Source: an uncultured Lentisphaerota bacterium
Lineage (GTDB): Bacteria > Verrucomicrobiota > Kiritimatiellia > CAIQIC01
Direction: 5' to 3'
Length of the DNA stretch: 32,582 nt
Assembly (NCBI GenBank): GCA_903871765.1
Contig: CAIQIC010000033.1
Location: 1 to 32,582 of the forward strand
Translations under genes and position numbers: made by a program
The notes under the pieces: model-generated
Told to the model about the DNA's origin: nothing
The model's input: the letters and a program-made list of their open reading frames with translations, nothing else
The model's database searches: none
In this document: piece by piece, positions 9,245 through 32,582 of the stretch
Numbering within the stretch: the stretch's first letter is position 1
Layout of the letters: every line of letters starts with the position of its first letter

Positions 9245-10462
9245 TTACTTTTCGGACGTCTCCGGGGTCGCCGGGCTCGCGGGACTGACGTCGTTCGTCG
9301 CGGTCGAAACCGTGTTCGTCACCGGCGGGGGCGGCGGACGGAGCTTCGCCAACTCGCTGCGCGCCGGCAGCAGCTTGCGGCACGAGTCATCCGACACGAT
9401 ATACGTGAAGTGGCTGAACAGGGCGTTTTTCTCCTGCGCCTTCTTGGTATCCGCCACAACCTTGGCCTCGTATTCCTTCTTCAGCGTGGCCACCTGGTTG
9501 GAGGCGGCGGCATTGGTGGCGGCAGCCAGGGCGGTAACAAAATTCGTCGGCGCCCCCGGCTGCAGGTATGACACCGCCAAGCGCACATAGCGGCCAGCCG
9601 GGGCATTGGTGCCCGCCTTAAGGGTGTAGTTCAAGCCGGACCTGGTCGTCACTTCCAGCGTCGGCGGCTGCCCGAGGCCCAACGCGGCCTCCTGGCGGGC
9701 GGGATCGGCCACGCCGGCGGCGTCGAGCCATGCGAGCGCGCCGGCGAGAGATTCCGTCATCTCGGTGTTCAACTCCTCATTGGTGCTGATACCTTCCAGT
9801 TTGAACAGGCTGTTGGAATAAGCCAGCATCCACGTTTGATTGGAAACGGAACCTTTGAGCTGCAACACTTCGTCCCGGGTGATCTCCAGTAATCGGGCCT
9901 TCACCCAGGCAAAGGATTGGCGCGGCCAATCGGACAAGTTCTCCTTCACCAACACCACCGGCCCGGAACCGGCGCGTACATAGCAACCGTCCGGGTAGCC
10001 GCCAAATTCGGAGTTCTGCCCCCGCAGGCGGGCCAAGCCCACGGTCAGCGCGGCCAATTCCTTGCCGGCGGCATCGGTCAGGCGGACCTGCAACGGCGCC
10101 TTGTTAGACGTCGCCAGCAGGCCGACGTCCTTGAGATACTGGTCGCCGCCGGCCAGCACTTCGCCCGCCTTGAGATTGGCCAGCGTGCGCAGGTTGTCGG
10201 CAAGCTTCTCAAAATCCGCGGGATGGTTCCACCGCGTGGCCACCACCCACCGGCCGTCCTGCCTGGCCAGGCGCACGGTGTTTGTCCCGTCCCGCAGCTC
10301 AAATCCGGCCACGGCATTAACGTCCAAGGACGGGAAAAGCGTGCGTCCCACCTGGACACCGCCGGCGGTTGCGGGTCGCGACGGTGGACGGTGTTGCATC
10401 ACGGCCGTCAACACCAGCACCGCCAGCACAACGGTCAGCCCAAGTAACGTACGCGCTTTCAT
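9245..10462 (-). CDS. DUF4340 domain protein, partner of a Gld-type ABC system
   Basis: This is a 405-residue protein with one N-terminal membrane segment (about residues 5-22) and a long extracytoplasmic part. The stretch with GFELRDGTNTVRLARQDGRW followed by a region on residual lengths and repeats is typical of DUF4340, whose members normally sit beside GldG-like ABC auxiliary proteins. The C-terminus is rich in proline, threonine and serine and probably disordered. It starts one base after the stop of the upstream GldG-like gene, which implies translational coupling and a joint function at the envelope. No catalytic motif is visible, and its biochemical role is unknown for the family as far as I know. 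Confidence 0.8.
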   Translation of the reverse strand: MKARTLLGLTVVLAVLVLTAVMQHRPPSRPATAGGVQVGRTLFPSLDVNAVAGFELRDGTNTVRLARQDGRWVVATRWNHPADFEKLADNLRTLANLKAGEVLAGGDQYLKDVGLLATSNKAPLQVRLTDAAGKELAALTVGLARLRGQNSEFGGYPDGCYVRAGSGPVVLVKENLSDWPRQSFAWVKARLLEITRDEVLQLKGSVSNQTWMLAYSNSLFKLEGISTNEELNTEMTESLAGALAWLDAAGVADPARQEAALGLGQPPTLEVTTRSGLNYTLKAGTNAPAGRYVRLAVSYLQPGAPTNFVTALAAATNAAASNQVATLKKEYEAKVVADTKKAQEKNALFSHFTYIVSDDSCRKLLPARSELAKLRPPPPPVTNTVSTATNDVSPASPATPETSEK

Positions 10463-10463
10463 C

Positions 10464-12335
10464 TCAGGTCCTCCTCCGTCTGACCGCCCGCGCCACGCCG
10501 AACAGGATCACCAACAGCGGCATGCCCGCCAGGTTGATGATCTTGCAGCGCAGGCCCAACTGCTCGACGTCCCGGCGCAGGCTCTTGCGCACCTCTTTCA
10601 GTTGCTGGCGCGTGCGCACGGTTTCCTGGCGGAACTTCTCGATTTCGCTCTTCTGCTCGGCGGACAGAATGACCTGCTGCGACGGGTCCTTGGTCCGCTG
10701 CAACTCGCTGAGCCGGCGCTGGGCGTCCTGCAAGACATCGTTGAGGCGTTTTTCCTCGGCGCGCCACTGCTCGGCCGCGCGGCTTTCCAGCGCGATTACC
10801 CGGTTGAACGGCCGCTCGTAGGAACTGCGGCTGCGCAGGCCGATCAGGTCCTGGCTGCCGGTGAGTTGCTCGAGCATGTTGAATAAAAAGCTCAGGTTGT
10901 GATTGCGCATCTGGTACACGGGCTGGCCGAAAACCTCGCCGCGCGCCAGGCAAAAGGCGTCATGGAGCATATCCACGTCGGCCACCAGGACAACGGTGCC
11001 GTTCGTAGTGCTTTCCTTGAGTGAGGCGGTCTGCGAGAGCTGGTTGGTCACGGCCGGATTGCCGGCCGGGAAAGCCGTTTTGAATTTTCCCTGCAAACGC
11101 AGGGCCAGGAGCGGCGGCGGGCTGCTGCGCTCCACGGTGTTCAGCGCGGCGTCGGAGCCAAGGCCGGCCGCCATGGCGTCCACGAAACCAGCCGACGCGG
11201 TCGGCTGCAGCAGCGCGGTCATGGTCAGGCCCGCCGCGGGCTGCCCGGTAAAGCCGCCGGCGCAGGGCAGCAGCAGGTCGCGCAAGGAACTGGTGGTCAC
11301 GTCGTTGGAGTTGATATTTTCGGCGCGCAAGGTCAGCCACGTGGGGTTGCTTTCCGGCGCCTGTCCGCGGCGGAATGAACCGCGCGTGGCCAGGTAGGGA
11401 TCGCTCAGCACCTTGCCGGGCTTGAGCTCCAACCCCCAGGCCTTGGTCAGGGTATTCAGATCCGAGCCGCTGCCGCCAGCCATCATCATCGGATTGCCGC
11501 CCTGCGACGCGATCAGGCACTGTGGGTCCATGAACGCCAGCAGGCGTCCCCCACGCAGCACGTACTGATCGAGCGCATACGGCAAAGCGTCGCCGAGCTG
11601 CTGCGGATGGATGACCAGCAGGGCATTCAGATCCGCGGGGATCTCCGTCGCCTCGCGGCCGATGGTCACGATCTCGTACAGGCCTTTCAGCTCTTCCATG
11701 AAATACCACGGCGGCTGCGGCTGCTGCTGGGGCATGCCGAAGTTCATGGGCGGCTGGCCGCCCATGACAGGCAGCGGCGTCAACAAGCCCAGGCGCGGTT
11801 TCCGTTCCCGCGTGGTCTCATAGATGGCGCGGGTGATCTGGTACTCGAGCTGGTCCTCATTGACCGGCGAGAGGAACGGCAGCACTTCCTCCTTGGCGCC
11901 AGCCACCACCGCCAACCCGAGATAGATCCGGCCTTCCTCCGACAACGGGTCCGCGCCCTGCCCCACGATCCCGTAGCGTTGGGCGGACTCCTCGGCATCG
12001 GAGTCGGGCTTGGGATCGTAGGTTTCCAGTTCCACCCGGCCCTTACCCAGGGCGACAAACTCCTTCAGCAGATCCGCCACGCGATCGCCGTAGTTTTTAA
12101 GGGGCGGCGGCAGGTTGGCGGCGCTGCGGGCATAGTAGAACTTCAGCGTCACCGGGCGGTCGAGCTTGTGCAGCAGCCGCGCCGTGCCGTCAGACAGGGT
12201 ATAGAGCCGGTCCTGGGTGGCATCCCTGCGCAGGCGCACTTGACCGAGCAGGACGTTCGCCGCAATCAGGATGCCCAGGAAGAGGGCGACGCCAGCCGCG
12301 CCCTGAAGCCGTCGTGTAGTAAGCAGGTTTTTCAT
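10464..12335 (-). CDS. GldG-like ABC transporter auxiliary protein
   Basis: This 623-residue protein has a membrane segment at each end: about residues 13-31, and a hydrophobic stretch near 598-614 followed by a basic RRRR tail. Between them is a large periplasmic part. The N-terminal pattern (RLYTLSDGTARLLHKLDRPVTLKFYYAR, here split across the first 80 residues) is characteristic of the ABC_transp_aux/GldG family. A coiled-coil-like, charged stretch from about 540 to 590 precedes the last membrane segment. GldG works with the GldF permease and GldA ATPase; in Bacteroidota the set is linked to gliding, while outside that phylum the substrate is unknown. It lies 17 bases after the permease gene and touches the DUF4340 gene. 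A role in gliding should not be assumed here. Confidence 0.85.
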   Translation of the reverse strand: MKNLLTTRRLQGAAGVALFLGILIAANVLLGQVRLRRDATQDRLYTLSDGTARLLHKLDRPVTLKFYYARSAANLPPPLKNYGDRVADLLKEFVALGKGRVELETYDPKPDSDAEESAQRYGIVGQGADPLSEEGRIYLGLAVVAGAKEEVLPFLSPVNEDQLEYQITRAIYETTRERKPRLGLLTPLPVMGGQPPMNFGMPQQQPQPPWYFMEELKGLYEIVTIGREATEIPADLNALLVIHPQQLGDALPYALDQYVLRGGRLLAFMDPQCLIASQGGNPMMMAGGSGSDLNTLTKAWGLELKPGKVLSDPYLATRGSFRRGQAPESNPTWLTLRAENINSNDVTTSSLRDLLLPCAGGFTGQPAAGLTMTALLQPTASAGFVDAMAAGLGSDAALNTVERSSPPPLLALRLQGKFKTAFPAGNPAVTNQLSQTASLKESTTNGTVVLVADVDMLHDAFCLARGEVFGQPVYQMRNHNLSFLFNMLEQLTGSQDLIGLRSRSSYERPFNRVIALESRAAEQWRAEEKRLNDVLQDAQRRLSELQRTKDPSQQVILSAEQKSEIEKFRQETVRTRQQLKEVRKSLRRDVEQLGLRCKIINLAGMPLLVILFGVARAVRRRRT

Positions 12336-12352
12336 GGTCGATTGCCTCGTGA

Positions 12353-13096
12353 TTATTTAGCGGCCCGGCTCTGCAGCACGGCTTGCGTGCAGAAGATCAT
12401 GAAGGCCATGACACTGAAGAAATAGAAAAAGTCGCGCAGGTCCAGAATGCCGCGCTGCAAGCTTTCAAAGTGCGTCATGAAGCTGAACGCCGCCACGCTC
12501 TCCACCAGCCAGGCGGGCGCCCACCGGACGAGCAGGTCGGTCACAGGCGGGAACCCGGCCAGGATCAGGAACAGCCCGCCGACGACCGCCAGGATGAAAC
12601 TGACCACCTGGTTGCGCGTCAGCGCGCTGGTCATCATGCCCAGCGCAAGATAAGCGCCGGCCAGCAGCACGCTGCCCAGGTAGCCGCTGCAGATCACGCC
12701 GGCGTCCGGCCGGCCGAGATAGAGGGCCGTCGCCGGCATCGGGAACGTCAGCGCCAGCGCCAGGATGATGAAACCCCAGGCGGCGAGGAATTTCCCCAGG
12801 ATCGCCTGCAGCGGCGTCACCGGCAGGGTCAACAGCAGCTCCAGCGTCCCGGAGCGGCGCTCCTCGGCCCACAGCCGCATGGCCACGGCGGGCACGAGCA
12901 CGAGGTAGAGCCAGGGATGCCACACGAAGAAACCGCGCAGATCCGCGCGCCCGGCTTCGTAGAACTGGCTGACGGAAAAGGTGAAAAAGCCAGCGAGGCC
13001 CAGGAAGATGACCAGGAACACATAGGCCACCGGCGAGTCGAAGTAAGACCGCCACTCCCGCTTGGCCACCGTCCAGATAGTATGCAGCGCTTCCAT
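12353..13096 (-). CDS. ABC-2 type permease, GldF-like
   Basis: This is a 247-residue integral membrane protein with about six hydrophobic segments. The N-terminus (TIWTVAKREWRSYFDSPVAYVF) and the following LAGFFTF, EERRSGTLELLLTLPV and LGKFLAAW stretches are hallmarks of ABC-2 permeases of the GldF/NosY type. It forms the membrane channel for the ATPase encoded just upstream. Its ATG overlaps the ATPase stop in a TGATG arrangement, so the two are translationally coupled. The length fits the family. The transported substrate cannot be read from the sequence. Confidence 0.88.
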   Translation of the reverse strand: MEALHTIWTVAKREWRSYFDSPVAYVFLVIFLGLAGFFTFSVSQFYEAGRADLRGFFVWHPWLYLVLVPAVAMRLWAEERRSGTLELLLTLPVTPLQAILGKFLAAWGFIILALALTFPMPATALYLGRPDAGVICSGYLGSVLLAGAYLALGMMTSALTRNQVVSFILAVVGGLFLILAGFPPVTDLLVRWAPAWLVESVAAFSFMTHFESLQRGILDLRDFFYFFSVMAFMIFCTQAVLQSRAAK

Positions 13097-13845
13097 CAGG
13101 CCACCTCCTTCCGGCTCAGCTCGGATACGTCCTCGGTCACGGTGAGTTGGCGGAACACGTCATCCAGCCGTCCCGTCGGGCTGCGCCGCTTCAATTCGGC
13201 CGGCGTGCAGTCGGCCACCAACACACCGTCGCTGATGATGATCACGCGCGAGCAGATGGCCTCCACCTCCTCCAGAATGTGCGTGGACAGGATGATGACC
13301 TTCTCTGAACCCATCTGCCGGATCATGTTCCGCACGACGTGCTTCTGATTGGGATCCAGTCCCTCGGTAGGCTCGTCCATGATCAGGGCCGGCGGATCGT
13401 GCAGGATGGCCTGCGCAAAGCAGACCCGCTGGCGATAGCCGCGCGAGAGGGTGTCGATCGTCTGGTGACTCACGTTGCCGAGAAAACATTTCTGGATCGC
13501 CGCGTCCGCGCGCGCATCGCGCCCGGCCCCGGTGTACCCGCGCATCTCGGCGATGAAACGCAGGAAGTTCCGCACCGACATGTCGCCATAGACCGGCGCG
13601 TTCTCGGGCAGATAACCCAGCCGCTGGCGCACCGGGACGGGATCGGTCGTCACGTCGAATCCGTCCACCACGGCCGTGCCGGAGGTGGGCGTCAGGAAGC
13701 CCGTGATCATGCGCATCGTGGTGCTCTTGCCGGCTCCGTTGGGGCCCAGGAAACCCAGCACCTCGCCTTTCCTGACCTCGAACGAAATGCCGCGCACCGC
13801 CTCCCGGCGGCCGAAGCGTTTCCACAGTTTCTTCACCTGTATCAT
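13096..13845 (-). CDS. ABC transporter ATP-binding protein, GldA-like
   Basis: This 249-residue nucleotide-binding subunit has a complete motif set: Walker A GPNGAGKST (34-42), signature LSRGYRQR (133-140), Walker B LIMDEPT (154-160) with the catalytic Glu, a D-loop at GLDP, and the switch His at 189. The chosen ATG at 13845 has GGGAG nine bases upstream. The frame stays open further upstream to 14025, but those 60 extra residues are not ABC-like and cross a palindrome and the divergent promoter region, so the short form is preferred. It heads the leftward operon and powers the permease encoded next. The fit to the GldA/CcmA/NosF-type exporter class is good; the substrate is unknown. Confidence 0.92.
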   Translation of the reverse strand: MIQVKKLWKRFGRREAVRGISFEVRKGEVLGFLGPNGAGKSTTMRMITGFLTPTSGTAVVDGFDVTTDPVPVRQRLGYLPENAPVYGDMSVRNFLRFIAEMRGYTGAGRDARADAAIQKCFLGNVSHQTIDTLSRGYRQRVCFAQAILHDPPALIMDEPTEGLDPNQKHVVRNMIRQMGSEKVIILSTHILEEVEAICSRVIIISDGVLVADCTPAELKRRSPTGRLDDVFRQLTVTEDVSELSRKEVA

Positions 13846-14019
13846 GTCATGTGTCTCCCTTCCCTGACTCGTGCCATGCTCCATGTGGCGCGCGGAATTA
13901 GATTGGACCGGCCGGCGCCGGCCGCGTTCAAAATATTTTTCTGCCGCCGACTGACTGCTGGCCCTGCCAACCAACCACCCCCGCCGGTTAACCAATTTTC
14001 CCTGTTCACAAATATTTAC

Positions 14020-14047
14020 TTGCATTCATATCATCTCTTTCTATACT
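14020..14047 (+). promoter_or_regulatory. Sigma-70-like promoter for the basic repeat protein
   Basis: A TTGCAT -35 box (14020-14025) and a TATACT -10 box (14042-14047) are separated by 16 bases in an AT-rich island within a GC-rich region. The boxes lie about 60 bases upstream of the ATG at 14110. The island also separates this gene from the divergent ABC operon, whose own promoter is probably here too but could not be placed with confidence. Confidence 0.6.
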
Positions 14048-14577: not shown

Positions 14578-14663
14578 GAGACGCCTGACGCTCCTGCGCC
14601 GTGCACCGCGCCAGCCGTCGGCGCCGCATCTTCAGCGGCCGCTTACTTGAACGCCGTCTGACC

Positions 14664-14695
14664 CCGCCGACTCGGCAGGGGGCGGTGCGGTTTTT
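14664..14695 (+). terminator. Candidate intrinsic terminator after the basic protein gene
   Basis: CCGCC (14664-14668) can pair with GGCGG (14681-14685) around a GC-rich loop that itself holds GCCG/CGGC. A run of five T occurs at 14691-14695. The stem is short and the T run is offset by five bases, so support is modest. It lies directly before tRNA-Leu. Confidence 0.35.
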
Positions 14696-14696
14696 C

Positions 14697-14777
14697 GGGC
14701 GAGTGGTGGAATGGCAGACACGCAAGACTTAGGATCTTGTGGCGCAAGCCGTGGGGGTTCAAGTCCCCCCTCGCCCA
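14697..14777 (+). tRNA. tRNA-Leu, anticodon UAG
   Basis: The acceptor arm GGGCGAG (14697-14703) pairs perfectly with CTCGCCC (14770-14776), followed by discriminator A. The anticodon stem CAAGA/TCTTG encloses the loop CTTAGGA, giving anticodon TAG (14730-14732), which reads CTA and other CTN leucine codons. A long variable arm built on GGC/GCC and a T arm with GGGGG TTCAAGT CCCCC fit a class II leucine tRNA. CCA is not encoded; the next bases are CAT. The 3' end also forms the left arm of a hairpin that continues downstream. Confidence 0.95.
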
Positions 14778-14888
14778 CATTCCATCCAGACGCATGTGGG
14801 CGGGATCCCTGCCCCGTGTCCGGTTTCAAAGCCCCCCCCTCGCCCACATTCAAACGAGATTCATGTGGGCGGGGCATCCCTGCCCCGC
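14772..14888. repeat. Two tandem hairpin repeats abutting tRNA-Leu
   Basis: The 9-bp arms CGCCCACAT and ATGTGGGCG occur twice, each pair around a 13-base loop: 14772-14780 with 14794-14802, and 14841-14849 with 14863-14871. The arms are identical and the loops differ. Each copy is preceded by a C run and followed by a GGG-ATCCCTGCCCCG-type stretch; in the second, GCGGGGC and GCCCCGC form another 7-bp hairpin (14869-14888). The left arm of the first copy overlaps the last six tRNA bases. The second copy ends 13 bases before the Nudix gene. Confidence 0.85.
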
Positions 14889-14901
14889 GTAAGGCAGAGA
14901 C

Positions 14902-15378
14902 ATGAAACCATCCTCCTCGTCCGTCCCCATCCAACCCGCATCCGCCATGGAACTGTTGGCGCGTGGCGTCTGTCTGCACCACGGGCGCCTGCTGCTCTGC
15001 CGCAACCGGCACAAGGGCAACGTTTATCTTCCCGGCGGGCACCTCGAAGGCGAGGAGCGCGCGCCGCAGGCGCTCCGCCGCGAAATCCGCGAGGAACTCG
15101 GACAGATCTGCACCGTTGGACGCTTTCTGGGCGTCGTGCAGCATGCCTTCGACGACCAGAACCAGCGCGTCGTGGAAATCAATCTGGTCTTTGCCTTCCG
15201 GCTCTCCAAGCCTCGGCTCGACCGGCCGCCCGCCTCGCGGGAGGACGCGCTGGAGTTTGTCTGGCATCCGCTGAAAACTCTCGGCCGCTCCGGCCTCGAA
15301 CCGCGGGTGCTGGCCGGATTGCTGCCCGCCTGGCTCAAGCCGTCCTTCCGCGGCAACCGCTGGGCGAGCACGTTCTGA
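14902..15378 (+). CDS. Nudix hydrolase
   Basis: This 158-residue protein contains a perfect Nudix box at residues 46-69, GX5EX7REX2EEXGX, with R60, E61, E64 and E65 as expected for metal binding. The N-terminal MELLARGVCLHHGRLLLCRN is the usual first strand region. Nudix enzymes cleave nucleoside diphosphates linked to another group; the substrate cannot be inferred from this protein, although a nucleotide or NTP-type substrate is common in this size class. The ATG at 14902 has an AAGG-like site; M16 at 14947 is an alternative start and would remove a poorly conserved, serine- and proline-rich leader. The next gene begins nine bases after its stop, suggesting co-transcription. It is cytosolic. 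Confidence 0.88.
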   Translation: MKPSSSSVPIQPASAMELLARGVCLHHGRLLLCRNRHKGNVYLPGGHLEGEERAPQALRREIREELGQICTVGRFLGVVQHAFDDQNQRVVEINLVFAFRLSKPRLDRPPASREDALEFVWHPLKTLGRSGLEPRVLAGLLPAWLKPSFRGNRWASTF

Positions 15379-15387
15379 AGAGGCCTC

Positions 15388-16794
15388 TTGAAACATTTCT
15401 TTAAGATTGGCTGCCTTTCCGTGTTGGGCTTATTGGTGCTGGGCGCGGCCGGATTGAGCCTATTCCTCGGTCATGTCCGTCGCACCGCACCGTCCTGGCC
15501 GGCACGCCTGCCGGGCGTCCGCCTCGAGCCCGCCCGCCCCACCCTGCGCGAGGCCGACGTCCAACCGGACAATGCCTACTATTATATCCGCCAACTGGCC
15601 GCATGGACCAATTCCCTGCGCCTACCCAAGGAGTGGGAACAACTCAAAGCCTGCGGCTATGAGCCGAAGGCCCAGCCGATAATGGATGCCTGGTTCGCCA
15701 GCAATGCGGCGCCGCTGGAACTCTGCCGCCAGGCGGCAGCTCTGACCAATTGCCAGGTGGCCACCATACTCTCGGTGAACCAATTGACGCCTTACATCAG
15801 GCCGGTTATATCGGCAGCGAAGATGCTCACACTGTGTGCGGAACAATCGGGGGCACGTCAGGAGTGGCCGCGGGCATTGGCCGATCTGCGAATAGCGCTG
15901 TGCCTTGGCGACCAGGTTAGCCGCGGGGGACCACTGATCAACAGCTTGGTTAATTTGGTCAGCGGCTCACAGACGTGTTGGGCAACACGCCGCATCGCGC
16001 TGACGACCCACCCGCCGGCGAATTTCCTGCGTGATGCCGGACAATTCTTCCAGACCACGGAAGAGCACTTGGAGCCTTTCTCCGAAACCATGCGGTATGA
16101 ATGGGTTTTTGCACGCGGAACGATCGAGGATCTCTGGCGGCACATGCCCGACAGCGAGACAAACAGCATGGTTAGAGAGCGGGAAATGCTGGGCATGAGC
16201 AAATGGCAGATGGCGTTGAGTTCTACAGAAATAATGCGGCATCATTTTGAGGACCTTTACTCACACCTGATTGCCTTCGCGGATGGACCTCCAGGCGAGC
16301 AAAAGTATCTCGCGGAGGTGAACACTTTTCTGGAGGATGAATCCAAACTGCACTGGCTTGCGGCCGGCGATATTATCGGACGGACCCTCGCCACCGTCAT
16401 GGTGCCCGGTGTGGCCGAAAATAGGACCAGATACCATGCTTACCTCGCCACTCTGCGCGGCACGCAGCTTTTTCTCGCCGTCTGCGCTTTCCGGGAGGAA
16501 CACGGCGGGCAGTTGCCGAAAACGCTGGAGGAACTCGTACCGGCCTATCTACCGAAACTGCCCGCCGATCCGTTTGCCAAGGACGGCCAGACGTTCCGTT
16601 ACCGCGTGGAGCAGAACCGTTGGGTGATCTACAGCATCGGACCCGACCAAAAGGACGATGGCGGGCAGTACGACTGGGCGAATCGCGAAGACCGATACAA
16701 ACCAGAAACCGATCTCCTTTTCGCCTCCGACGAATTCGACAAGGCCCGCGCACGCTACCTAGAAAAACAGAAGACTAAGCCAGCGGAGGAATGA
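15388..16794 (+). CDS. Membrane-anchored hypothetical protein with pseudopilin-like C-terminus
   Basis: This 468-residue protein has one N-terminal membrane segment (about residues 7-28) and a large predicted extracytoplasmic part. Residues 360-440 follow a pattern seen in many verrucomicrobial and planctomycete hypothetical proteins: AFREEHGGQLPKTLEELVP, then YLPKLPADPF, then a YSIGPD...DDGGQ stretch. That pattern resembles the C-terminal region of type II secretion pseudopilins, but the prepilin cleavage motif is absent. The start is a TTG with AGAGG just upstream, nine bases after the Nudix stop. Base composition in the middle of the gene looks more AT-rich than the neighbouring genes. I do not recognise a function. 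Confidence 0.7.
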   Translation: MKHFFKIGCLSVLGLLVLGAAGLSLFLGHVRRTAPSWPARLPGVRLEPARPTLREADVQPDNAYYYIRQLAAWTNSLRLPKEWEQLKACGYEPKAQPIMDAWFASNAAPLELCRQAAALTNCQVATILSVNQLTPYIRPVISAAKMLTLCAEQSGARQEWPRALADLRIALCLGDQVSRGGPLINSLVNLVSGSQTCWATRRIALTTHPPANFLRDAGQFFQTTEEHLEPFSETMRYEWVFARGTIEDLWRHMPDSETNSMVREREMLGMSKWQMALSSTEIMRHHFEDLYSHLIAFADGPPGEQKYLAEVNTFLEDESKLHWLAAGDIIGRTLATVMVPGVAENRTRYHAYLATLRGTQLFLAVCAFREEHGGQLPKTLEELVPAYLPKLPADPFAKDGQTFRYRVEQNRWVIYSIGPDQKDDGGQYDWANREDRYKPETDLLFASDEFDKARARYLEKQKTKPAEE

Positions 16795-23321: not shown

Positions 23322-23414
23322 ACCCCCGAATTAAGGACGCAGTGGCCAACAATCTTTGAAGATCGCTGGGGTGACAGGCGTATTATGGATGAAGTTCATC
23401 AGATCGAGGGCGGC

Positions 23415-23966
23415 ATGGAACAAAAGCACAGCCCGACCGCATCCGCCGTAAAGGACGGTCCGCTGGATATTGAGGCCGTTGTGGCTCAGCATGAAGCAGC
23501 CCTGTTGCGTTACGCCGCCCGCCTGGCGGGCAATCCGGTGCTGGCGCAGGATATCGTGCAGGACGCGTTCATCCGCCTGGTGCGGCACTGGCGCGACGGG
23601 GCCCAGCCGTCCGTGCCGCTGGTCCCCTGGCTGTACCGCGTCACGCACAACCTCGCCGTGGACTACATCCGCCACGAGGACCGGCTCCGGCAGTTGCATG
23701 CCCGCCAGGCCCAGGAGATCGCGCCGGACGTGCCGGCCGGACAGCGCCGCCAGGTCGAACGCCACGAGGCGTTGCAGTGGACGCAGCGGTTTCTGCGGGA
23801 GCTGGACCCGGCGGAACAGCAGGTGGCCATCCTGAGATTACAGGAGGGCCGCTCGTACAAGGAAATCAGCGAAATTACCGGCCGCAGCGCGGGCAACGTC
23901 GGCTGCCTCCTGCATCATGCCGCGAAGCATCTGGCGGAGAAACTGAAGCAGGTGGGCGCCATATGA
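23415..23966 (+). CDS. ECF-like sigma factor (sigma-70 family)
   Basis: This 183-residue protein has a region 2 helix set (about 29-90) with DIVQDAFIRLVRHWR (46-60) and WLYRVTHNLAVDYIRHEDR (72-90). A region 4 helix-turn-helix (about 117-175) follows, with LDPAEQQVAILRLQEG, SYKEISEITGRSAGNV and LLHHAAKHLAEKL. Regions 1 and 3 are missing, as in ECF factors. It directs RNA polymerase to its own promoters, normally held off by the anti-sigma factor encoded next. The ATG at 23415 has GAGG five bases upstream; an upstream in-frame ATG at 23385 would add ten residues. It ends in ATGA, opening the mini-ORF at 23963 and then the anti-sigma gene. No matching -35/-10 consensus was identified. Confidence 0.88.
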   Translation: MEQKHSPTASAVKDGPLDIEAVVAQHEAALLRYAARLAGNPVLAQDIVQDAFIRLVRHWRDGAQPSVPLVPWLYRVTHNLAVDYIRHEDRLRQLHARQAQEIAPDVPAGQRRQVERHEALQWTQRFLRELDPAEQQVAILRLQEGRSYKEISEITGRSAGNVGCLLHHAAKHLAEKLKQVGAI

Positions 23967-24010
23967 AGAGGACCCGACCGCAAACGATGGCCAGGACGAT
24001 GGAGACGTGA
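23963..24010 (+). CDS. Possible 15-codon coupling ORF between sigma and anti-sigma genes
   Basis: The ATG overlaps the sigma stop (ATGA at 23963-23966), and 15 codons later TGA ends at 24010, two bases before the ATG of the anti-sigma fusion. The peptide is basic (MKRTRPQTMARTMET). It may only keep ribosomes on the message to couple translation of sigma and anti-sigma. A stable peptide is not supported by anything else. Confidence 0.3.
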   Translation: MKRTRPQTMARTMET

Positions 24011-24012
24011 AC

Positions 24013-27000
24013 ATGAGCTGCCAGGAATATCAGGAACAATTGACCCTTTATCTGCTCGGCGATCTGGAGGCCGGGCAGGCGGCGCAGGTGCGCGCCCATC
24101 TGGAAACTTGCGCGGCGTGCCGGGCGGCGGCGGGCGAATTGGAACGGACCCTCGATCTGATGCGCTCCACGCTCGCCGTCAGCCCGGCGGCGCCCGCGCG
24201 GCTCGACGCGGCCCGCCGCCGGAAGATCCTCCGCGCCAAGTTCCGCTGGTGGCCGCGCCCGTGGCAGGATCTCGCCAAGGTCGCCGCCGTCCTGCTGGTC
24301 GCGATAGGCATCCTGAGCGCCGTGCTCATGCCGGCCGTGACGGATTCCCTGGTGAAGGGCAAGATGACCGGCGCACTCAGCAACGCCCGCAGCGTATATA
24401 TGGCTGCGTTTGGCAAGTCCATCGAAGATCCCACTGGTTCAGACGCCAATGCCGCCGCCGCTCTCCCCCGCTCGGCTCCCCCGTCAACCCCTGGCTCGGC
24501 CGCAACGACGCCGGCAGAGGTTAGTCGGTCGTCGCGGGTCGGCTCCACATGGGGATCAGCCGCGGAAGTCGAAAATGTCAGGCTGACCGAGGGTCGCGAG
24601 CGGGCCAACGAGGAGAAAGCCGCTCTGAGCGATACTGGCGTGTCCGGCGGCGGGATCCTCTTGGCTAATGCCGAGCGCAGGCGCGAATCCGGCCGTGCGG
24701 ATGCCCCGGACAAGAAACTCGGCGAAATGGTTCCGCTGCGGACGGAACTGCCCAAACCGTTGATCGTAGGCACGCCGACCCCGATCCGGGTGCCGAATGT
24801 CGAACCCGGGGTGCCGCATTACGACTATGCCGCGCGGAAAGGTGACAAGGAAACGGAGAGCCAGAGTTCGCCTGATCGCTCGAAACATGACGAGCGCGTC
24901 CCGGAGAAGATTCCGCTGCTAGGTGATCTACCTGTTACAGGCCGGCTGTTCGCCGAAGCGCGGACAGCCCAAGCGCCCCAACCGGACACGTCGCCGACCG
25001 CCGATGATTCCAGGCGCGACCAAGAACTCTATGTCACTGGCGGAAAAAGCAGGGTCGCGATTCAACACGAAGCAGTCGCCGCAGCGCTCCCGGCGCTCAA
25101 ACCACCTACGGTCAAACTACCCGTGGGCGGCCGCGAAGGCGCACAACCAGTGGGCACCGTTGTCAGTAGTAGTGGTCTTCTGGATTTGAACGGCGGCACA
25201 GTGGCGGATCACTTTGCCTATGGTCCCGGCGCCGCGCCAGCCGAGGGGCCCGTGCGGAAAGACAAGCTGGCAGAAAAGAAACCCGGCCAAGACCAGGTGG
25301 CGGTAAATAAGCCTGGCGGGGAGCCGTTGGGACTCCGCGATATTGATGACGATACCACGCCGGCCAGCGAAGCAAAACCCGCCGCCGGTCAGGTTGTCCG
25401 CGGCCTCACGGTGGATAAATGGGCTGCGGATGGCACCGTGGCGCCAGGCACGAATGCCAGCGTTCCGGCTGCTTGGGGATATGCCAACGCGGCCTCGGGT
25501 TCGGATCTGGCCAGCCCAACCAAGTCGGCGCAATCGCTCAAGGACATTGCGCACAGCCGCGGCGGCGCAGGCGGCGGCGAAGGTCGCGACACGGACGGCG
25601 ATCAACCTGACGGTAAAAGCGCCAAGGCCGGTGAAGAGATCATACCCTCCGACATGCGAGAAACGATAGATTCGCGGCAAGTTACCGCTCTGGCGAAAAC
25701 CGACCGCGAGAAATTTAAGACCGAAGCATCGCCGCAGGCGAAGGAGGGCAGCGCCACCTCGACAAGGAAGCTTGCTGAGAATGAGCACACTGCAACTAAA
25801 GAGCGCCTCAAGGAAATCATCATCCCGTCAATCGATTTGAAGCAAGCCAACATACAGGATGTCGCTCAATATCTATCTCAAACTGCCGGAGATTTGGATG
25901 AGCACAAATCAGGGATCAAGATTGAAGCGGATGCAGAACTGAAGGCGAGCCCCCCCATTACGATGAGCCTGCGCAGAGTCAGCACCTTTGATTTAATCAA
26001 GTATATCGCCGAATACGCCGACGCAGATTACAAGATCACGGATAAGGGTGCTGTGTTTATCCCGAAAGATTCCGATCAGCCGCGTATCGAGCGCCGCTAT
26101 CCGCTTTCGGCGCAACTGGTAACGGGTCCTGACCCCGATATCCAGAATATCCAGAAGTTCTTTGAGAAAGCGGGCATCCGTTTTCCTGCGGGCGCATCGG
26201 CTCGATATGATGAGAAAAAGGGTGAAGTCGTCGTGGTGAATACGCCGCGCATGTTGGAACAACTCGAATCGTGTATGACGACGATTGCTGTTGCGAAACC
26301 CACGGAGCCGACGACCAAGCCGATCTTCCGCGCGGCGGGGGTGAATCCGTGGGTGGCGGCGCAGGCGCAAACATTCTCGACGTTCTCGATCAGCGTGGAT
26401 TCGGCCTCGTTCACGCTGGCGCGCCGCTATCTCAACGGCGGGCAGCGGCCGCCGCCGGAGTCGGTGCGCACGGAGGAGTTCGTCAACTTCTTCGACTATG
26501 CCCTGCCCCCGCCGGGCCGCGACCTGTTCAGCGTCCAGGCGCAGGCGGCGCGCACGCCGTTCTGCCCGCCGGGCGTACAGTTGCTTAAGCTCGGCGTCAA
26601 GGGCCGGCACGTGGGCCGCGAGAACCGCGGCGCGAACCTGACGTTCCTGCTGGACACCTCCGGCTCGATGAACGCGCCCGACCGGCTGGAGTTGGCGCGC
26701 GCCGCGCTCAAGCTGCTCGTCGCGAAGCTCGGCCCGGCCGACCGCGTCGCGCTGGTCACCTTCAGCAGCCGCGCCCGGCTGGTGCTGGACTTCACGCCCG
26801 CCACGGAACAGAAAAAGATCCTCGCCGCGCTCGACGGCCTCCAGGCGGCGGGGTTCACGCACCTCGAAGGCGGCCTGAAGCTGGCCTACCAGACCGCCGC
26901 GCGCGGCTTCATCAGCGGCGCCGCCAACCGCGTCATCCTGATGAGCGACGGCGTCGCCAACGTCGGCGCGGCCGAAACCGCCGAGCTGCTGGCGCAGGTG

Positions 27001-27678
27001 GAGCGGTACCGCAAGCAGAACATCTTCTGCTCGGTCTTCGGCCTCGGCACGGGCACCTACGACGACACGATGCTGCAGGCGCTGGCCAGCCAGGGCCACG
27101 GCACCTACCTCTTCATGGACTCGCTCGACGAGGCACGCCGGGTGTTCGTGGACGAGCTGGCCGCGACGCTGAACAAGATCGCCGCCGACGTCAAGATCCA
27201 GGTCGAGTTCAATCCGCGGCGCGTGAAGCAGTACCGGCAGCTCGGCTACGAACAGCGCCAGCTCAAGACCGAGGACTTCCGCAACGACGCCGTCGCCGCC
27301 GGCGAGGTCGGCTCCGGCCAGGCCGTCACCGCGCTCTACCAGGTCGAGCTGCAGGGCGACGTCAACGAGCCGCTCGGCACGGTGCGCATCCGCGGGCGCA
27401 ACCTGGAAACCGGGCGCGTTGAGGAGCTGGAGCGTGCCATCACGGCGGCGGACCTGGCGCCGTCCTTCGAGCGGGCCGACGTGCGCTTCCGGCTCGCCGC
27501 CGCCGCCGCGCAGTTTGCCGAGATCCTGCGCGGTAGCCCCTATGCGGAAGGTACCAGCTGCGCCGACGTGGCCAAGGTGCTGCGGCCCATCGCGCTGGAA
27601 CTGAGCCTGGACCAGAAGGTGCAGGAGCTGCTGCGCCTGGTCACCGCCGCCCAGACCGCCCCGCCCGCTGCGGAGTGA
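24013..27678 (+). CDS. Transmembrane anti-sigma / secretin-like / von Willebrand A fusion protein
   Basis: This 1221-residue protein begins with a zinc-finger anti-sigma (zf-HC2) domain: C3, then HLETCAACR with H29, C33 and C36. One membrane segment follows (about 87-107), then a low-complexity region to about 590 that contains the secretin-type signature IPLLGDLPVTGRLF (300-313). Residues 602-693 resemble a secretin N0/STN fold, and 694-757 a companion secretin-like repeat. A YfbK-type N-domain (about 777-865) precedes the VWA domain (from 872), whose metal site is DTSGSM (D881, S883, S885), T949 and D979, and then a DUF3520-like tail. The zinc domain should hold the sigma factor encoded just upstream and the VWA part should face the outside; topology is inferred. 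GGAG eight bases upstream supports the ATG at 24013, not the GTG at 24007. The middle is visibly less GC-rich than both ends. Confidence 0.85.
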   Translation: MSCQEYQEQLTLYLLGDLEAGQAAQVRAHLETCAACRAAAGELERTLDLMRSTLAVSPAAPARLDAARRRKILRAKFRWWPRPWQDLAKVAAVLLVAIGILSAVLMPAVTDSLVKGKMTGALSNARSVYMAAFGKSIEDPTGSDANAAAALPRSAPPSTPGSAATTPAEVSRSSRVGSTWGSAAEVENVRLTEGRERANEEKAALSDTGVSGGGILLANAERRRESGRADAPDKKLGEMVPLRTELPKPLIVGTPTPIRVPNVEPGVPHYDYAARKGDKETESQSSPDRSKHDERVPEKIPLLGDLPVTGRLFAEARTAQAPQPDTSPTADDSRRDQELYVTGGKSRVAIQHEAVAAALPALKPPTVKLPVGGREGAQPVGTVVSSSGLLDLNGGTVADHFAYGPGAAPAEGPVRKDKLAEKKPGQDQVAVNKPGGEPLGLRDIDDDTTPASEAKPAAGQVVRGLTVDKWAADGTVAPGTNASVPAAWGYANAASGSDLASPTKSAQSLKDIAHSRGGAGGGEGRDTDGDQPDGKSAKAGEEIIPSDMRETIDSRQVTALAKTDREKFKTEASPQAKEGSATSTRKLAENEHTATKERLKEIIIPSIDLKQANIQDVAQYLSQTAGDLDEHKSGIKIEADAELKASPPITMSLRRVSTFDLIKYIAEYADADYKITDKGAVFIPKDSDQPRIERRYPLSAQLVTGPDPDIQNIQKFFEKAGIRFPAGASARYDEKKGEVVVVNTPRMLEQLESCMTTIAVAKPTEPTTKPIFRAAGVNPWVAAQAQTFSTFSISVDSASFTLARRYLNGGQRPPPESVRTEEFVNFFDYALPPPGRDLFSVQAQAARTPFCPPGVQLLKLGVKGRHVGRENRGANLTFLLDTSGSMNAPDRLELARAALKLLVAKLGPADRVALVTFSSRARLVLDFTPATEQKKILAALDGLQAAGFTHLEGGLKLAYQTAARGFISGAANRVILMSDGVANVGAAETAELLAQVERYRKQNIFCSVFGLGTGTYDDTMLQALASQGHGTYLFMDSLDEARRVFVDELAATLNKIAADVKIQVEFNPRRVKQYRQLGYEQRQLKTEDFRNDAVAAGEVGSGQAVTALYQVELQGDVNEPLGTVRIRGRNLETGRVEELERAITAADLAPSFERADVRFRLAAAAAQFAEILRGSPYAEGTSCADVAKVLRPIALELSLDQKVQELLRLVTAAQTAPPAAE

Positions 27679-27748
27679 AGATGGCGGAAGAGGAATCCAT
27701 CCGCAGATTGCACAGGTTGAAAGCAGCAGAAGAGATTGTGCGAACGAC

Positions 27749-29539
27749 ATGAACCCCCGCTTATCCAACTCCGCCAGGATGCCGTCGCCACAGCCAATGT
27801 TTGCAGAGTTTGCGCTGACGCGACCTGCCGCCACAACCACCCACCGGGGAGCAGCCGCTGCCGGACGATCCGCTTGTCTTGCATTCCAAGGATGGGGAAA
27901 AGAGCCGGCACTTTTCCAAAGCCTGACGCTGCGAGGCATGCTGCTCTTGACCGCTGCGCTGGCCTGGGCGGGCGTTGTCCAAGGTTATCCTGTCGGACCG
28001 CCCTTAAGCCTGGAGAAGCTGGCCGCTGCGGCCGACGTCATCTTCAAAGGCACGGTGGTCTCCAGCGGGCCCGTGCAGGACGAATGGTTCAAGCCGTATC
28101 CGGATTTCGTTGCCCGTGAGACCACGTTCGCGGTCGTTACAGTCATCCAGGGCGCCGTACCAGGCGCGATGCTCCGGTTCCATCATTATGCAGAAAGCCC
28201 GCAGCCCCACGGTCGCATGTTTGCGCCACAATATTACCGTTTTGAAGCTGGCAGGTCTTACGTTGTTTTCGCCAAACGGAGCTCGCCTACCGGCGTCTTC
28301 CGGCAACTCTGGGCCAACCACACAGGGAAGACGGATCAAGGCCAATGGTTGTGTTCCAACAACAAAGCGGTGACGGCCAAAACCGTGCCGGAAGTGCTTT
28401 GGAACGAACTGGTGCTGATGGTAAACAGCGACGACGCCAGCAATGTCACCTATGCCCTCAGGCAATTGGACCAGATGAGCGGCGGACAGAATCTCTACGC
28501 TGGCACACAGGATTTCGCGCGCACGAACGTACTGGCGGCCATCCATGACTTGATGACGAACTCCGATCCAAAGATCGCACAGGCCGCCATCGCCATGGTC
28601 GGTTCGCACAACCCCTACCTGTCCGACGAACGGACCATCTTCTGGCTGGCCACGGTGGGCAGTGCCGAGGTTCCTGGCATCGGCAAGATGGACCCGAAGA
28701 TGAAAAATACCGGGGGTGAACTGTATTGGAAGGATCTCGTGACCCTGGCCGATAGCAAGGCGAGCAACGCAACGCGCGCGATGGCCATCCAAGCCTTAGG
28801 TCTGCTGCGCGAACCGTCGCTGCAGACGGCCATCGAGCGCTGGCTGAACGATTCGGCGCCGGCCATCCGCGCCGCAGCCACCCTGTTGCTGGCGGACTTC
28901 CCCGGACCGGAGATTTGCCGGCGTTTGACGGCACTGGCCCATGATATTGAACCAGAGGTGCGTACGAGTGTGGCGCGCGCGACCGGTTTTGCACAGCAGG
29001 CGGAGATGGCCGACACACTGGCGAGACTCCTGTTGGACAAGGATCCCAAGGTCCGCTCAGCCGCCGCGATGAGTCTGCTATCGTTCGCACCGAAGACCAA
29101 GGCCATCGCCGGCGTCTTCCGGGAAAATCTTAAGAATGAGGAATTCAGACCGCTGTTCCTCATCGCGTTGGCTCGCGAAAATCCGGCAGATCACCTGGAC
29201 GCCCTGGCGCAAGCGGTGGAACAGAAAAGCGAGCCAAAGAACTTCTGGGGCGGGCAGATACCAGCCTTCACCGCGTGGAAAATCCTGTTTAGCCACCTAC
29301 AGACGCAGTCGTCCGCAATGTTGAACTCCGGCCAGCTGGACCGCTATCTCGACGCGCTGGAGAAGGTCGGCAACTACTCATCCTCCGAGCCGCGCGACAT
29401 CTACGCTTTTTATATCCAGCACAGCATGGCCGGGCGGGCGCAGAAGTTCCGCGCGGCAGCGAAAGCGGCTGCATCATACGACCTCGACTATTACTTTAAA
29501 CGGGTGGACGAAAATCCAGGGCTATATAAGCGACCGTAG
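27749..29539 (+). CDS. HEAT-like repeat protein with internal signal-type segment
   Basis: This 596-residue protein, if read from the ATG at 27749, has a hydrophobic stretch at about 62-82 (MLLLTAALAWAGVVQG) that looks like a signal peptide. The true start may therefore be M64 at 27938; neither start has a convincing ribosome site, so the N-terminus is uncertain. After the signal, an N-terminal domain (about 85-220) contains DVIFKGTVVSS and RFEAGRSYVVFAK, a pattern reminiscent of exported beta-sandwich domains. Residues about 330-460 hold HEAT-like helical repeats with AIRAAATLLLADF, EVRTSVARATGF and KVRSAAAMSLLSF. HEAT arrays bind proteins; no enzyme motif is visible. It lies 70 bases after the VWA gene and 46 before the next, so it is probably in the same operon. 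Its base composition is lower in GC than both neighbours. Confidence 0.7.
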   Translation: MNPRLSNSARMPSPQPMFAEFALTRPAATTTHRGAAAAGRSACLAFQGWGKEPALFQSLTLRGMLLLTAALAWAGVVQGYPVGPPLSLEKLAAAADVIFKGTVVSSGPVQDEWFKPYPDFVARETTFAVVTVIQGAVPGAMLRFHHYAESPQPHGRMFAPQYYRFEAGRSYVVFAKRSSPTGVFRQLWANHTGKTDQGQWLCSNNKAVTAKTVPEVLWNELVLMVNSDDASNVTYALRQLDQMSGGQNLYAGTQDFARTNVLAAIHDLMTNSDPKIAQAAIAMVGSHNPYLSDERTIFWLATVGSAEVPGIGKMDPKMKNTGGELYWKDLVTLADSKASNATRAMAIQALGLLREPSLQTAIERWLNDSAPAIRAAATLLLADFPGPEICRRLTALAHDIEPEVRTSVARATGFAQQAEMADTLARLLLDKDPKVRSAAAMSLLSFAPKTKAIAGVFRENLKNEEFRPLFLIALARENPADHLDALAQAVEQKSEPKNFWGGQIPAFTAWKILFSHLQTQSSAMLNSGQLDRYLDALEKVGNYSSSEPRDIYAFYIQHSMAGRAQKFRAAAKAAASYDLDYYFKRVDENPGLYKRP

Positions 29540-29585
29540 AAATAAACGACTGAACGGCACGCATGATTTGGAACGGGAGGTCAAG

Positions 29586-32582
29586 ATGAAGAAGCTACTG
29601 ACGGGTTGGCTGCTGCTGCTGGGCGCGGCAGGCGCGTGGGGCATGGGGCGGCCAGTGGTCGCGCCGGGCCAGGGCATCGTAATCGCGGAACTCGATCTGC
29701 GCGGGCGCATCGAGGGCGAGAACGTCAGCTTCACGCTCAACCTCCAGGCCGACGCGCCCGACCGCAGCCGGCTGACGGTGGTGGCGGGCGACGTCACCTG
29801 CCTGACCTCCGCCGTCCCGCGCGGCGTCACCCTGGTGCGCGAGGGCAAGGCCTACGTCCTCGTCTTCGAACGGCACGTCCAGGAAAAACTCAGCCTGACC
29901 TTCGCCAGCCTGCCCGCGAAGGAAGGCGACTGGCGCGCGACGCAGTTCGCGCTGCCGGGCGCCACGGTGCGGCGCGTGGCGATGCTGTGCGACCGGCCGG
30001 ACCTGCAGGTGGAGTTCCCCGGCGCCCTCGGCGTCGAGCGGCGCAAGACGGCAGACGGCCGCACGGAGATCGCGGCGAGCCTCGGCGTGATCCGCAGCTT
30101 CACCGTCCGCTGGAAGCCGGAGGTCAAGGCCCTGACCGGCGAACTGGCGGCGACGTGCGACGCGCACGCGATCTACAGCGCGAGCGTCGGCGTGCTGCGC
30201 ATGGACAGCCTGCTGACCTACCGCGTCATCCAGGGCGCGCTGGAGAAACTGACGCTGGCCCTGCCGCCGGAGCTGAACGTGACCCAGGTGCGCGGCCCGG
30301 ACATTCGCGAGTGGACTGTCGAGGCCGCCGCGCCGACCAACGCCGAGCGGCGGCTCGTCATCACCCTAAGCCGGCCGCAGGAAAAGATCTACCAGCTCGG
30401 CCTCGAGGCCGAGCGCGTGCTGGCGGCCTTCCCCTGCAAGTTCGAGCTGCCGCTGCCCGTGCCGCAAAACGTGCTGCGGACCAGCGGCTTCCTGCTCATC
30501 GGGACCGACAGCGCCGTGAAGCTGCTGGTGAGCAAGTCGCTGGGCCTGACGCAGATTGACCAGGCGGCCTTCCCCGCCCTGGCGGCGGCGGACAACCGCA
30601 CCCGGCTGGCGCCGGCGCGCACCGCCTACGCCTACCAGTATGCCAACCTGCCGGCCCGCGCCGAGCTGGGCGCCGACGACATCGTGAACACGCTGCACAG
30701 CGAGGAGCGGCTGACGCTGGCCCTGAGCGACAACGACCTGGCGTTCGACGCCAGCGTGGAGCTCGACATCCGCGACGCCCCCGCGCGCGAGGCGGCGCTG
30801 AACGTGGATCCGGCGTGGAGCGTCGTGAACGTGGCGGGCGCGAACCTCGCCGACTACGAGGTGCGCGACCAGGCCGGGACGCGGCAGATCAAGCTGTTCT
30901 TCAAGACGGCGGTGAGCGGCCGCACGCTGGTCGAGGTGCGGCTGGAAAAGACGCTGGCGGAAGGCCAGGCGGAGTTTGCCGCGCCGCTGTTCCGCGTGGC
31001 GGAGGCCCGCACCGAGCGGGGCCACCTCGTACTGCGCGCCGAGAAGGGCGTGCGGTTCAAACCGTCCGTGGTCACCAACCTGACGGAAGTCCATCTGGCC
31101 TCGCTGCCGACGCGCGTGCCGGACGCGCAGCAGGCCTTCCGCTTCAAGGACGGCGACTGGACCCTGGGCGCGAAAATCGAGAAGACCACGCCGGCGATCT
31201 ACGCCGAGCTGTTCCAGCTCGTCTCGGCGGGCGAGTCCGCGCTCTACGGCAGTTGCTCGATCACCTACCACATCGGCGGCGCGCCGGTGCGGCAGCTCCG
31301 CGTCCACGTGCCGGCGACGTGCCAGAACGTCGAGTTCACCGGGCACGACATCCGCGCGCGCGAGAAGACCAAGGACGGGACGAACGACGAGTGGCAGGTG
31401 ACGTTCCAGGAGAAGATCCTCGGCGACTATACGCACCTGGTGACCTATGACCGGCCCTTCGCCCTGGAGGGCGGCGGCGTCGAGCTCGGCGGCCTCGAGA
31501 CGCTGGGCACGGAGAACGAGTCGGGCTACCTCGTGCTGGCGGGCGCGGCCAGCCTGCAATTCCAAAGCCTGGACCAGGCCGACCCCGCGCTGATCAAGCT
31601 CGATCGCGCCGAAATCCCGCCGGCCTACGCGCTGCTGATCAACGACCCCGTGCTCGCGGCGTTCAAATACGTCGGCCGCCCGCACCAGGCCCAACTCAAG
31701 GTGCAGCGCTACAAGACGCAGGCGCTGCTCGCGCAGGTGGCCGACCACATCGGCTTCGCGACGCGCCTCAGCAAGGAAGGCGAAAGCGTTACGACGGTGA
31801 CCTATGACGTGAAGAATTCGTCGCAGCAATATTTCGGCCTCAAGCTGCCGGCCGGGGCACGGCTGCGGAACCCCAGGGTAGATGGCGTCACCGTGCAGGC
31901 GCTATCCGTGCCGCAGCAGGCGGGCAAGGTGCTCGTGCCGCTGCGCCGCCTGCGCGACCCAAACCAGCCGCTGCGCGTCGAGGTGGTCTATGACGAGATG
32001 AAGAGCGCCTGCCGCTGGTGGTGGCCGCAGACGGTGCGCTGGGATGCGCCGGTGACGGACGCCCAGTCGGTCTTCGCCAAGTGGACGCTAACGGCGCCGG
32101 AGCATTTCACGCTTGGCGCGGCGGGCGGCAACCTCGCGCCGGTCAAGGCGCCGTTCGCGGGCCTGCTGCGCCTTGCGGCGAATTTCGGCGAGCTCGTCGG
32201 CGGCATGGTGACGCGCGCCCTGGCTTGGCTGGTGTTCGTGAAACTGTTCTGCCTCGGCATCATCGTCCTGGCCTATCGCCGCGCGCGCGGCCTCAAGAAT
32301 CCGGTGTTTTACGCACTGGCCGCGGTGCTGCTCGGGGTCGCGCTGGTGGCGGCGCTCGCGGGTGAAGGGGCGCGCGGGCTGCGCATGGCCTTCAAGCAAA
32401 CCGATCTGGGCAGCGTGGCGCCGATGCAGGCAGCCTTCACGCGGCCGGTCAGTCCGGCGGGCAGCGATCTGGAACTGCAGGCGACGGTCCAGCCGGCGTG
32501 GCTCGGCCAGGAAGGTTCGCTCACCACCTTCGTCGTGGGCACGCTCGCGGGGCTCGTCTTGCTGGCCGGCGTCCGCCGCGGC
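29586..32582 (+). CDS. Large exported membrane-anchored protein of unknown function (3' end outside window)
   Basis: A strong GGGAGG site five bases before the ATG and an unbroken frame to the right edge (999 codons) define this gene. The first 20 residues (MKKLLTGWLLLLGAAGAWG) form a typical signal peptide. Roughly 850 residues of beta-rich sequence follow, with repeated sandwich-like spacing but no motif I can name. Hydrophobic segments then appear near 878-895, 905-925 and 981-995, so the C-terminal side is membrane-embedded and continues beyond the window. It comes right after the HEAT-like gene and downstream of the anti-sigma/VWA fusion, so it may be the structural or ligand-binding partner of that system. 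This is inference from neighbourhood only. Confidence 0.75.
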   Translation, partial: MKKLLTGWLLLLGAAGAWGMGRPVVAPGQGIVIAELDLRGRIEGENVSFTLNLQADAPDRSRLTVVAGDVTCLTSAVPRGVTLVREGKAYVLVFERHVQEKLSLTFASLPAKEGDWRATQFALPGATVRRVAMLCDRPDLQVEFPGALGVERRKTADGRTEIAASLGVIRSFTVRWKPEVKALTGELAATCDAHAIYSASVGVLRMDSLLTYRVIQGALEKLTLALPPELNVTQVRGPDIREWTVEAAAPTNAERRLVITLSRPQEKIYQLGLEAERVLAAFPCKFELPLPVPQNVLRTSGFLLIGTDSAVKLLVSKSLGLTQIDQAAFPALAAADNRTRLAPARTAYAYQYANLPARAELGADDIVNTLHSEERLTLALSDNDLAFDASVELDIRDAPAREAALNVDPAWSVVNVAGANLADYEVRDQAGTRQIKLFFKTAVSGRTLVEVRLEKTLAEGQAEFAAPLFRVAEARTERGHLVLRAEKGVRFKPSVVTNLTEVHLASLPTRVPDAQQAFRFKDGDWTLGAKIEKTTPAIYAELFQLVSAGESALYGSCSITYHIGGAPVRQLRVHVPATCQNVEFTGHDIRAREKTKDGTNDEWQVTFQEKILGDYTHLVTYDRPFALEGGGVELGGLETLGTENESGYLVLAGAASLQFQSLDQADPALIKLDRAEIPPAYALLINDPVLAAFKYVGRPHQAQLKVQRYKTQALLAQVADHIGFATRLSKEGESVTTVTYDVKNSSQQYFGLKLPAGARLRNPRVDGVTVQALSVPQQAGKVLVPLRRLRDPNQPLRVEVVYDEMKSACRWWWPQTVRWDAPVTDAQSVFAKWTLTAPEHFTLGAAGGNLAPVKAPFAGLLRLAANFGELVGGMVTRALAWLVFVKLFCLGIIVLAYRRARGLKNPVFYALAAVLLGVALVAALAGEGARGLRMAFKQTDLGSVAPMQAAFTRPVSPAGSDLELQATVQPAWLGQEGSLTTFVVGTLAGLVLLAGVRRG

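Follow-up and report, generated by a model that had tools for sequence, protein, structure and literature searches.

The window analysed here, 32,582 nucleotides long, is the entire contig C33 of a 573-contig draft genome of an uncultured Lentisphaerota bacterium (G000; the other G-numbers below denote other genomes of the same class). On its plus strand it carries a gene for an extracytoplasmic function (ECF) sigma factor, followed by a gene for a membrane protein that joins an anti-sigma zinc domain to a YfbK-type von Willebrand factor A (VWA) domain through a long linker containing pieces of exported proteins. The sigma factor gene, at 23415..23966 or from an alternative ATG at 23385, has Pfam matches to Sigma70_r2 and Sigma70_r4 and matches TIGR02937 (8.7e-26), which bears out the original prediction, made from the sequence alone, of an ECF-like sigma gene before the fusion. 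The mosaic protein (1221 amino acids, 24013..27678; Pfam and NCBIfam matches, 59 orthologs) is numbered here from the ATG at 24013, while a GTG at 24007 is also a possible start. It is followed on the same strand by an exported HEAT-repeat protein (open reading frame (ORF) 27749-29539, signal-like start at 27938; HEAT_2, 5.8e-21) and by a giant beta-sandwich membrane protein (29586..32582), recognised from AlphaFold2 (AF2) modelling and from synteny in relatives and cut by the contig end. Both downstream proteins begin, as judged by eye, with signal-peptide-like sequences, as had been predicted; of the two, the conserved set includes the giant protein alone.

In a class-wide search the YfbK part was found in 122 of 346 genomes at 1e-60, and 59 copies in 58 genomes, all of one class, were taken as orthologs at a threshold of at least 45 % identity. 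The closest relatives with named records are Lentisphaerae or metagenome-assembled genomes of the PVC group. Of the 52 copies with enough upstream DNA, 48 have an ECF sigma gene as their immediate upstream neighbour, the conserved pairing expected of a sigma factor and its anti-sigma factor, and the two genes overlap by 4 bp in 30 copies. The giant gene is directly downstream in 42 of 45 testable copies. Sigma factor, zf-HC2 mosaic protein and giant protein are thus the conserved core of the orthologous locus. No homologue of the HEAT-repeat protein was found at the other related loci, in some of which a cystatin or serpin gene occupies its slot, and it is probably outside the system. Of the four genes whose common occurrence had been proposed as a check, three stay together, and of the two downstream proteins named as candidate partners only the giant one retains its place. 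A conserved fourth gene after the giant was not found; a pilin follows the giant gene only in G005 (G005:C112:62578-63231; L245:12564-13256), where a segment of this pilin resembles the linker, and not in the other genomes examined. Outside the class, proteins of the YfbK type share the same three C-terminal domains (PF12450, VWA and PF12034), but most of them, in other phyla, have no detected zf-HC2 domain and no adjacent sigma gene. The combination of zf-HC2, YfbK and sigma factor also occurs in one record each from Phycisphaerales, Myxococcales and, with a weak zf-HC2 match, Chthoniobacterales, and in the open-access papers searched no description of the architecture was found.

The two ends of the mosaic protein are its fixed parts. 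The zf-HC2 zinc domain (24019..24123, plus strand as are all features of this protein) has the pattern C-x25-H-x3-C-x2-C and matches PF13490 over the cut-off (3.1e-10); the predicted ligands C3, H29, C33 and C36 agree with the start at 24013. It was found at the N terminus in 43 of 48 scanned relatives. The C-terminal part consists of the YfbK N-terminal domain PF12450 (26326..26565; 9.3e-22), the VWA domain with a complete metal site (26635..27126; 1.2e-19) and the YfbK C-terminal domain PF12034 (27163..27654; 1.7e-36), each above its Pfam cut-off, and the three stand in that order in all 48 relatives. The metal-site residues D881, S883, S885, T949 and D979 are invariant in these 48. The predicted VWA site is real, and the VWA part is specifically of the YfbK type. 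The protein thus combines the zinc ligands and conserved adjacent sigma gene of zf-HC2 ECF anti-sigma factors with the domains of a YfbK-type VWA protein, and from family and synteny we infer that the zinc domain holds the sigma factor. AF2 predicted the YfbK part well, and among solved folds those nearest to the VWA part are ArnA/ArnB, the Sec23/24-like core of archaea. Matching to defence families with PADLOC gave nothing of note; a DrmC match (E=0.003) falls in the VWA region and was set aside.

The giant protein is about 2000-2200 amino acids long in relatives, is membrane-anchored and has no Pfam match. Its first 1005 residues were modelled by AF2 as a beta-sandwich array with helices near the end (mean residue confidence, pLDDT, 83; predicted TM-score 0.43). 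Matches to integrin and macroglobulin chains were generic multi-sandwich resemblances with a query TM-score of at most 0.14, and nothing was concluded from them.

The linker of about 700 amino acids between the membrane helix and the VWA domain is variable and is where the likeness to other proteins of the genome is found. The single membrane segment of the original prediction is real, but it had been missed that the C-terminal half of the helix and about 45 residues after it are pilin sequence. This segment (24289..24483) is 68 % identical over 65 amino acids to the genome's own pilin (G000:C487); over 57 amino acids, 43 residues (75 %) are identical to a pilin of this genome. Residues 240-270, the LPKP..GTP module (24724..24816; 63 % identity over 31 amino acids to G000:C5), had likewise been missed; in exported discoidin-like proteins this sequence forms the N-terminal tail that directly follows the signal peptide. 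A linker match to G000:C341 outside this tail was rejected as read-through of untranslated sequence before a discoidin gene. A secretin signature peptide, KIPLLGDLPVTGRLF, follows at residues 298-320 (24898..24966). The predicted signature is present as a pattern in 8 of 59 relatives compared with 0 of 200 shuffles, while in the window protein the GspD profile matches only weakly (E=0.024). The secretin N0-like sequence that had also been predicted is confirmed as an N0-N1-like module (25783..26298), which matches NF042912, the Amuc_1098 profile, at 1.5e-22 and is 41 % identical to the genome's own 925-residue secretin; its N1 half is modelled with moderate confidence (pLDDT 73-84). The linkers of G276 (L178:4438-4998) and G275 (L179:263-847) carry the two halves of N0 in swapped order.

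Other linkers contain other pieces. Autotransporter PATR repeats (4 of 48 relatives), DUF4159 (2 of 48), LysM, TPR, STN and secretin fragments were found, the secretin N-domain in only a handful of orthologs. A further short module, the MKGI tail (SPVIMKGIYG), occurs in relatives' linkers and elsewhere in a TonB-like protein with prenyltransferase-like repeats, named by eye. In the ten genomes searched for it, it was present only in the anti-sigma proteins and, in nine, in ORFs of 292-590 amino acids, which were TonB-like where read. Over the 59 linkers MKGI was counted 20 times, LPKP 13, the secretin signature 8 and PATR 7, compared with shuffle means of at most 0.73. The LPKP and MKGI modules had been picked by motif, and the pilin piece for its match in G000 and then tested in the others. 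Of 53 family membrane helices, 43 % scored above the 99th percentile of 1500 control helices with a pilin profile (p=1.6e-16), a conservative test since a few of the controls are overlapping copies of family members or of pilins. Module content and order differ by species, for example LPKP precedes the signature in G000 and follows it in G135.

The modules recur, and they often resemble proteins of the bearer's own genome more closely than expected from a single ancient capture, after which the linker copies should be nearest to one another and about equidistant from every donor. The reverse holds for the secretin module, for roughly half of the LPKP results and, among the pilin segments, for those of G000 and G005. 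In a tree of secretin N0-N1 domains each of the linker copies from G000, G073 and G069 clusters with its own lineage's secretin (support 97/99, 82/79 and 94/89, respectively), that of G000 with the f1 secretins. The secretin module was gained at least three separate times, as the well-supported branches force three changes, and descent from one capture is rejected for it. The branch of the G000 copy is long and stand-alone N0 proteins were left out of the tree, so that one of the latter may have been its direct source. Small proteins of this kind, exported or lipoprotein-like and with the secretin N0 domain alone or repeated, are common in the class (L333-L342, e.g. G000:C57:11906-12256).

Donors of the other modules were sought by search within the own genome. 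For LPKP the one best donor was an own-genome protein in 8 of 14 genomes, and none of 20,000 permutations attained the summed own-genome score (p=5e-5). In G326 the linker and its own donor have 20 of 21 core residues in common, and in G344 they share a variant seen only there. The MKGI tail also matched the own genome (p=0.002, 6 genomes). The own pilin was the best match in the three genomes whose linkers have the pilin extension, with 30 (G000), 29 (G005) and 23 (G004) of 40 residues identical against 19, 24 and 20 for the next best pilin; in G000 it was the best of 8 compared. Because the own donor beats the other linkers, a single ancient capture is disfavoured for the pilin, as it is for roughly half of the LPKP cases.

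Close matches of this kind might simply reflect recent DNA copying. For most pairs this was rejected as the general cause because synonymous sites are near saturation. Pooled over five genomes, the LPKP module gave proportions of nonsynonymous and synonymous differences (pN, pS) of 0.10 and 0.69, corresponding to substitution rates (dN, dS) of 0.11 and 1.9; dN was 0.16-0.21 and dS 1.4-1.5 for the pilin segments of G000 and G005 (G000: 0.21 and 1.42), and 0.38 and 1.37 for that of G004, all rough figures as the sequences are short and near saturation. Identical codons among identical residues were about as frequent as the cross-genome background, and the rest of the linker gave a dN/dS of about 0.5-0.6 among close relatives. 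Protein identity retained at near-saturated synonymous sites indicates that purifying selection, rather than recent copying, maintains most of the matches. Recent copying does nevertheless occur. In G048 about 142 bp are identical between the linker of a zf-HC2 protein and an exported discoidin gene, in which the stretch directly follows the signal-peptide part (L185:1-157, G048:C6, and L188:2597-2753, G048:C4); the zf-HC2 gene lies without a VWA part on its contig piece, and both contigs end at the shared stretch, as at an assembly branch. A contig of G031 (L184) ends similarly, and G135 is an intermediate case.

Several known systems resemble parts of this arrangement. The zf-HC2 (ZAS-type) membrane anti-sigma factors share the N-terminal Cys/His zinc domain, one membrane helix and an adjacent or overlapping ECF sigma gene, to which the mosaic protein adds the long linker, the C-terminal YfbK VWA part and the conserved giant partner gene. 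RsgI of Clostridium thermocellum is likewise a membrane anti-sigma factor with a variable outer part, made of carbohydrate-binding, glycosidase or peptidase-like modules (PMC12203970). These bind external carbohydrates, with one sensor domain per protein, whereas here several short self-like pieces stand in one linker; the RsgI N-terminal domain and a SigI partner were tested for and not found, zf-HC2 and an ECF sigma factor being present instead. FecR, PupR and FoxR share an anti-sigma domain, a membrane helix and an outer domain homologous to one of the partner: PupR carries an STN domain homologous to the signalling domain of its partner (PMC7186176), and contact with the partner protects FoxR from proteolysis (PMC11637429). 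In those systems the STN domain is a regular part of the regulator, which has a TonB-dependent transducer as its partner, whereas here the N0-N1 module resembles a type IV pilus secretin and was gained several times. No FecR domain was matched by Pfam in the mosaic protein, and among the genes of the operon none was seen for a TonB-dependent transducer, with no search for transducers made elsewhere in the genome. PilS, a membrane regulator also linked to pilin, contacts the pilin PilA directly (PMC6058289), but is a six-helix kinase, whereas here the regulator itself has a pilin-like helix. The prepilin leader and FTLIEL-type N terminus were not found in the mosaic protein and the secretin beta-barrel PF00263 had no match in it, only the signature and the N0-N1 pieces being present; as these defining parts are missing, it is not a member of the secretins, pilins, RsgI or FecR proteins.

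By analogy with PilS and PilA, PupR, FoxR and RsgI, we suggest, as a reading somewhat short of an even chance, that the mosaic protein is a membrane anti-sigma factor which keeps watch on the envelope machines of its own cell through imitations of their parts. On the cytoplasmic side the zf-HC2 domain would hold the ECF sigma factor, the product of the adjacent upstream gene. Beyond the inner membrane the linker would display look-alikes of the pilin, secretin and other exported proteins of the same genome, and each could dock where the genuine part docks: the pilin helix with pilins or their platform, the N0-N1 module with the ring of secretin N-domains, and the LPKP tail with whatever holds the tails of the discoidin proteins. 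Depending on whether these docking sites are free or filled, the anti-sigma factor would be held or would lie open to a protease, and its cleavage would free the sigma factor, which may in turn control envelope genes. The YfbK-type VWA part probably works with the giant protein. A related and more tentative proposal, possible but clearly short of probable, is that the regulator carries, as baits or decoys, an evolving panel of copies of envelope proteins encoded in the same genome, which each lineage gains anew and selection keeps similar. Such a panel is comparable in its logic to the integrated decoys of plant immune receptors.

If the reading of a monitor by imitation is right, this would be a bacterium that watches its surface machinery through imitations placed on a sigma switch and renewed from its own genes, and the linkers would give a readable list of the envelope systems watched by each sigma factor in an uncultured lineage. 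Two known ideas, exchangeable outer modules of anti-sigma factors and decoy domains, would be joined in a testable way, and the regulator would be of a new kind should self-mimicry prove to be how it senses.

Several observations weigh against monitoring by imitation. A sensor with fixed partners would not be expected to exchange its modules so often, many orthologs lack all four motifs, and the pilin extension is absent from the linkers of G001 and G002. The own LPKP donor is not the best in G001, G004, G005, G167 and G276, with a near tie in G135; the own-genome match of MKGI is clear only in G030 and G329; and AF2 confidence is low for the N0 half of the secretin-like module. The main rival reading, which accounts better for the turnover, is that the look-alikes are integrated decoys, that is, targets for attackers such as foreign proteases, phages using pili or secretins, or predators, whose attack would cleave or pull the anti-sigma factor, free the sigma factor and turn on protection. 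Repeated gain from the own genome, rapid replacement from species to species and selection to stay similar to the real target all fit such a bait. In three genomes the anti-sigma gene is separated from the giant gene by a protease inhibitor gene of one of two unrelated families, a cystatin in G002 and G005 and a serpin in G336 (L045:9805-10575, L043:6485-7114 and L148:7679-8932); this suggests a theme of proteolysis in these three genomes only. In most orthologs, however, that slot contains no inhibitor gene, the defence-family matching speaks against a decoy, and surface exposure of the linker is an assumption of the model, which we consider unlikely, if worth keeping in view. Linkers that lack all modules would be expected if the pieces are filler without function, accumulating in a disordered linker that tolerates insertions and in which only in-frame exportable sequence survives. 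The rapid evolution of the rest of the linker and the DNA-identical copy in G048 agree with this, but the modules hold protein identity at near-saturated synonymous sites, and the same few recur in distant families rather than random exported genes. The selection data weaken this explanation, which appears rather improbable overall and remains for the less conserved pieces.

The fusion had been predicted to be one fixed sensor of a surface or envelope partner through its VWA and secretin-like parts, with the two downstream proteins as partners. The conserved giant gene and the invariant VWA metal site agree with that, but the HEAT gene is not conserved, and the secretin N-domain cannot be the common sensor because only a handful of orthologs have it. 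The secretin-like parts are one instance of a variable mosaic of self-derived modules, and the fixed arrangement now seems quite improbable. Of similarly low probability is that the anti-sigma factor is built into the pilus base or secretin ring as a minor subunit, its assembly state and not competition controlling the sigma factor. Secretin N-domains form rings, and the pilin helix and N0-N1 module both resemble type IV pilus or secretion parts of this genome; still, the pilin-like segment has neither the leader nor the start of a pilin, and the remaining modules are not assembly subunits.

Elsewhere in the window, plus-strand positions 14697-14778 encode a tRNA-Leu. The minus-strand ORF around it (14632-15396) is probably not a gene, given the tRNA within it and its lack of a Pfam match. 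Positions 3-8456 encode a very large protein of 2817 amino acids, whose reading frame runs off the start of the contig; it contains six lamin-tail domains, a CotH domain and a Calx-beta-like stretch. An ABC transporter operon on the minus strand (9245-14025) includes DUF4340 and ABC_transp_aux protein and is akin to gliding-type transport operons.

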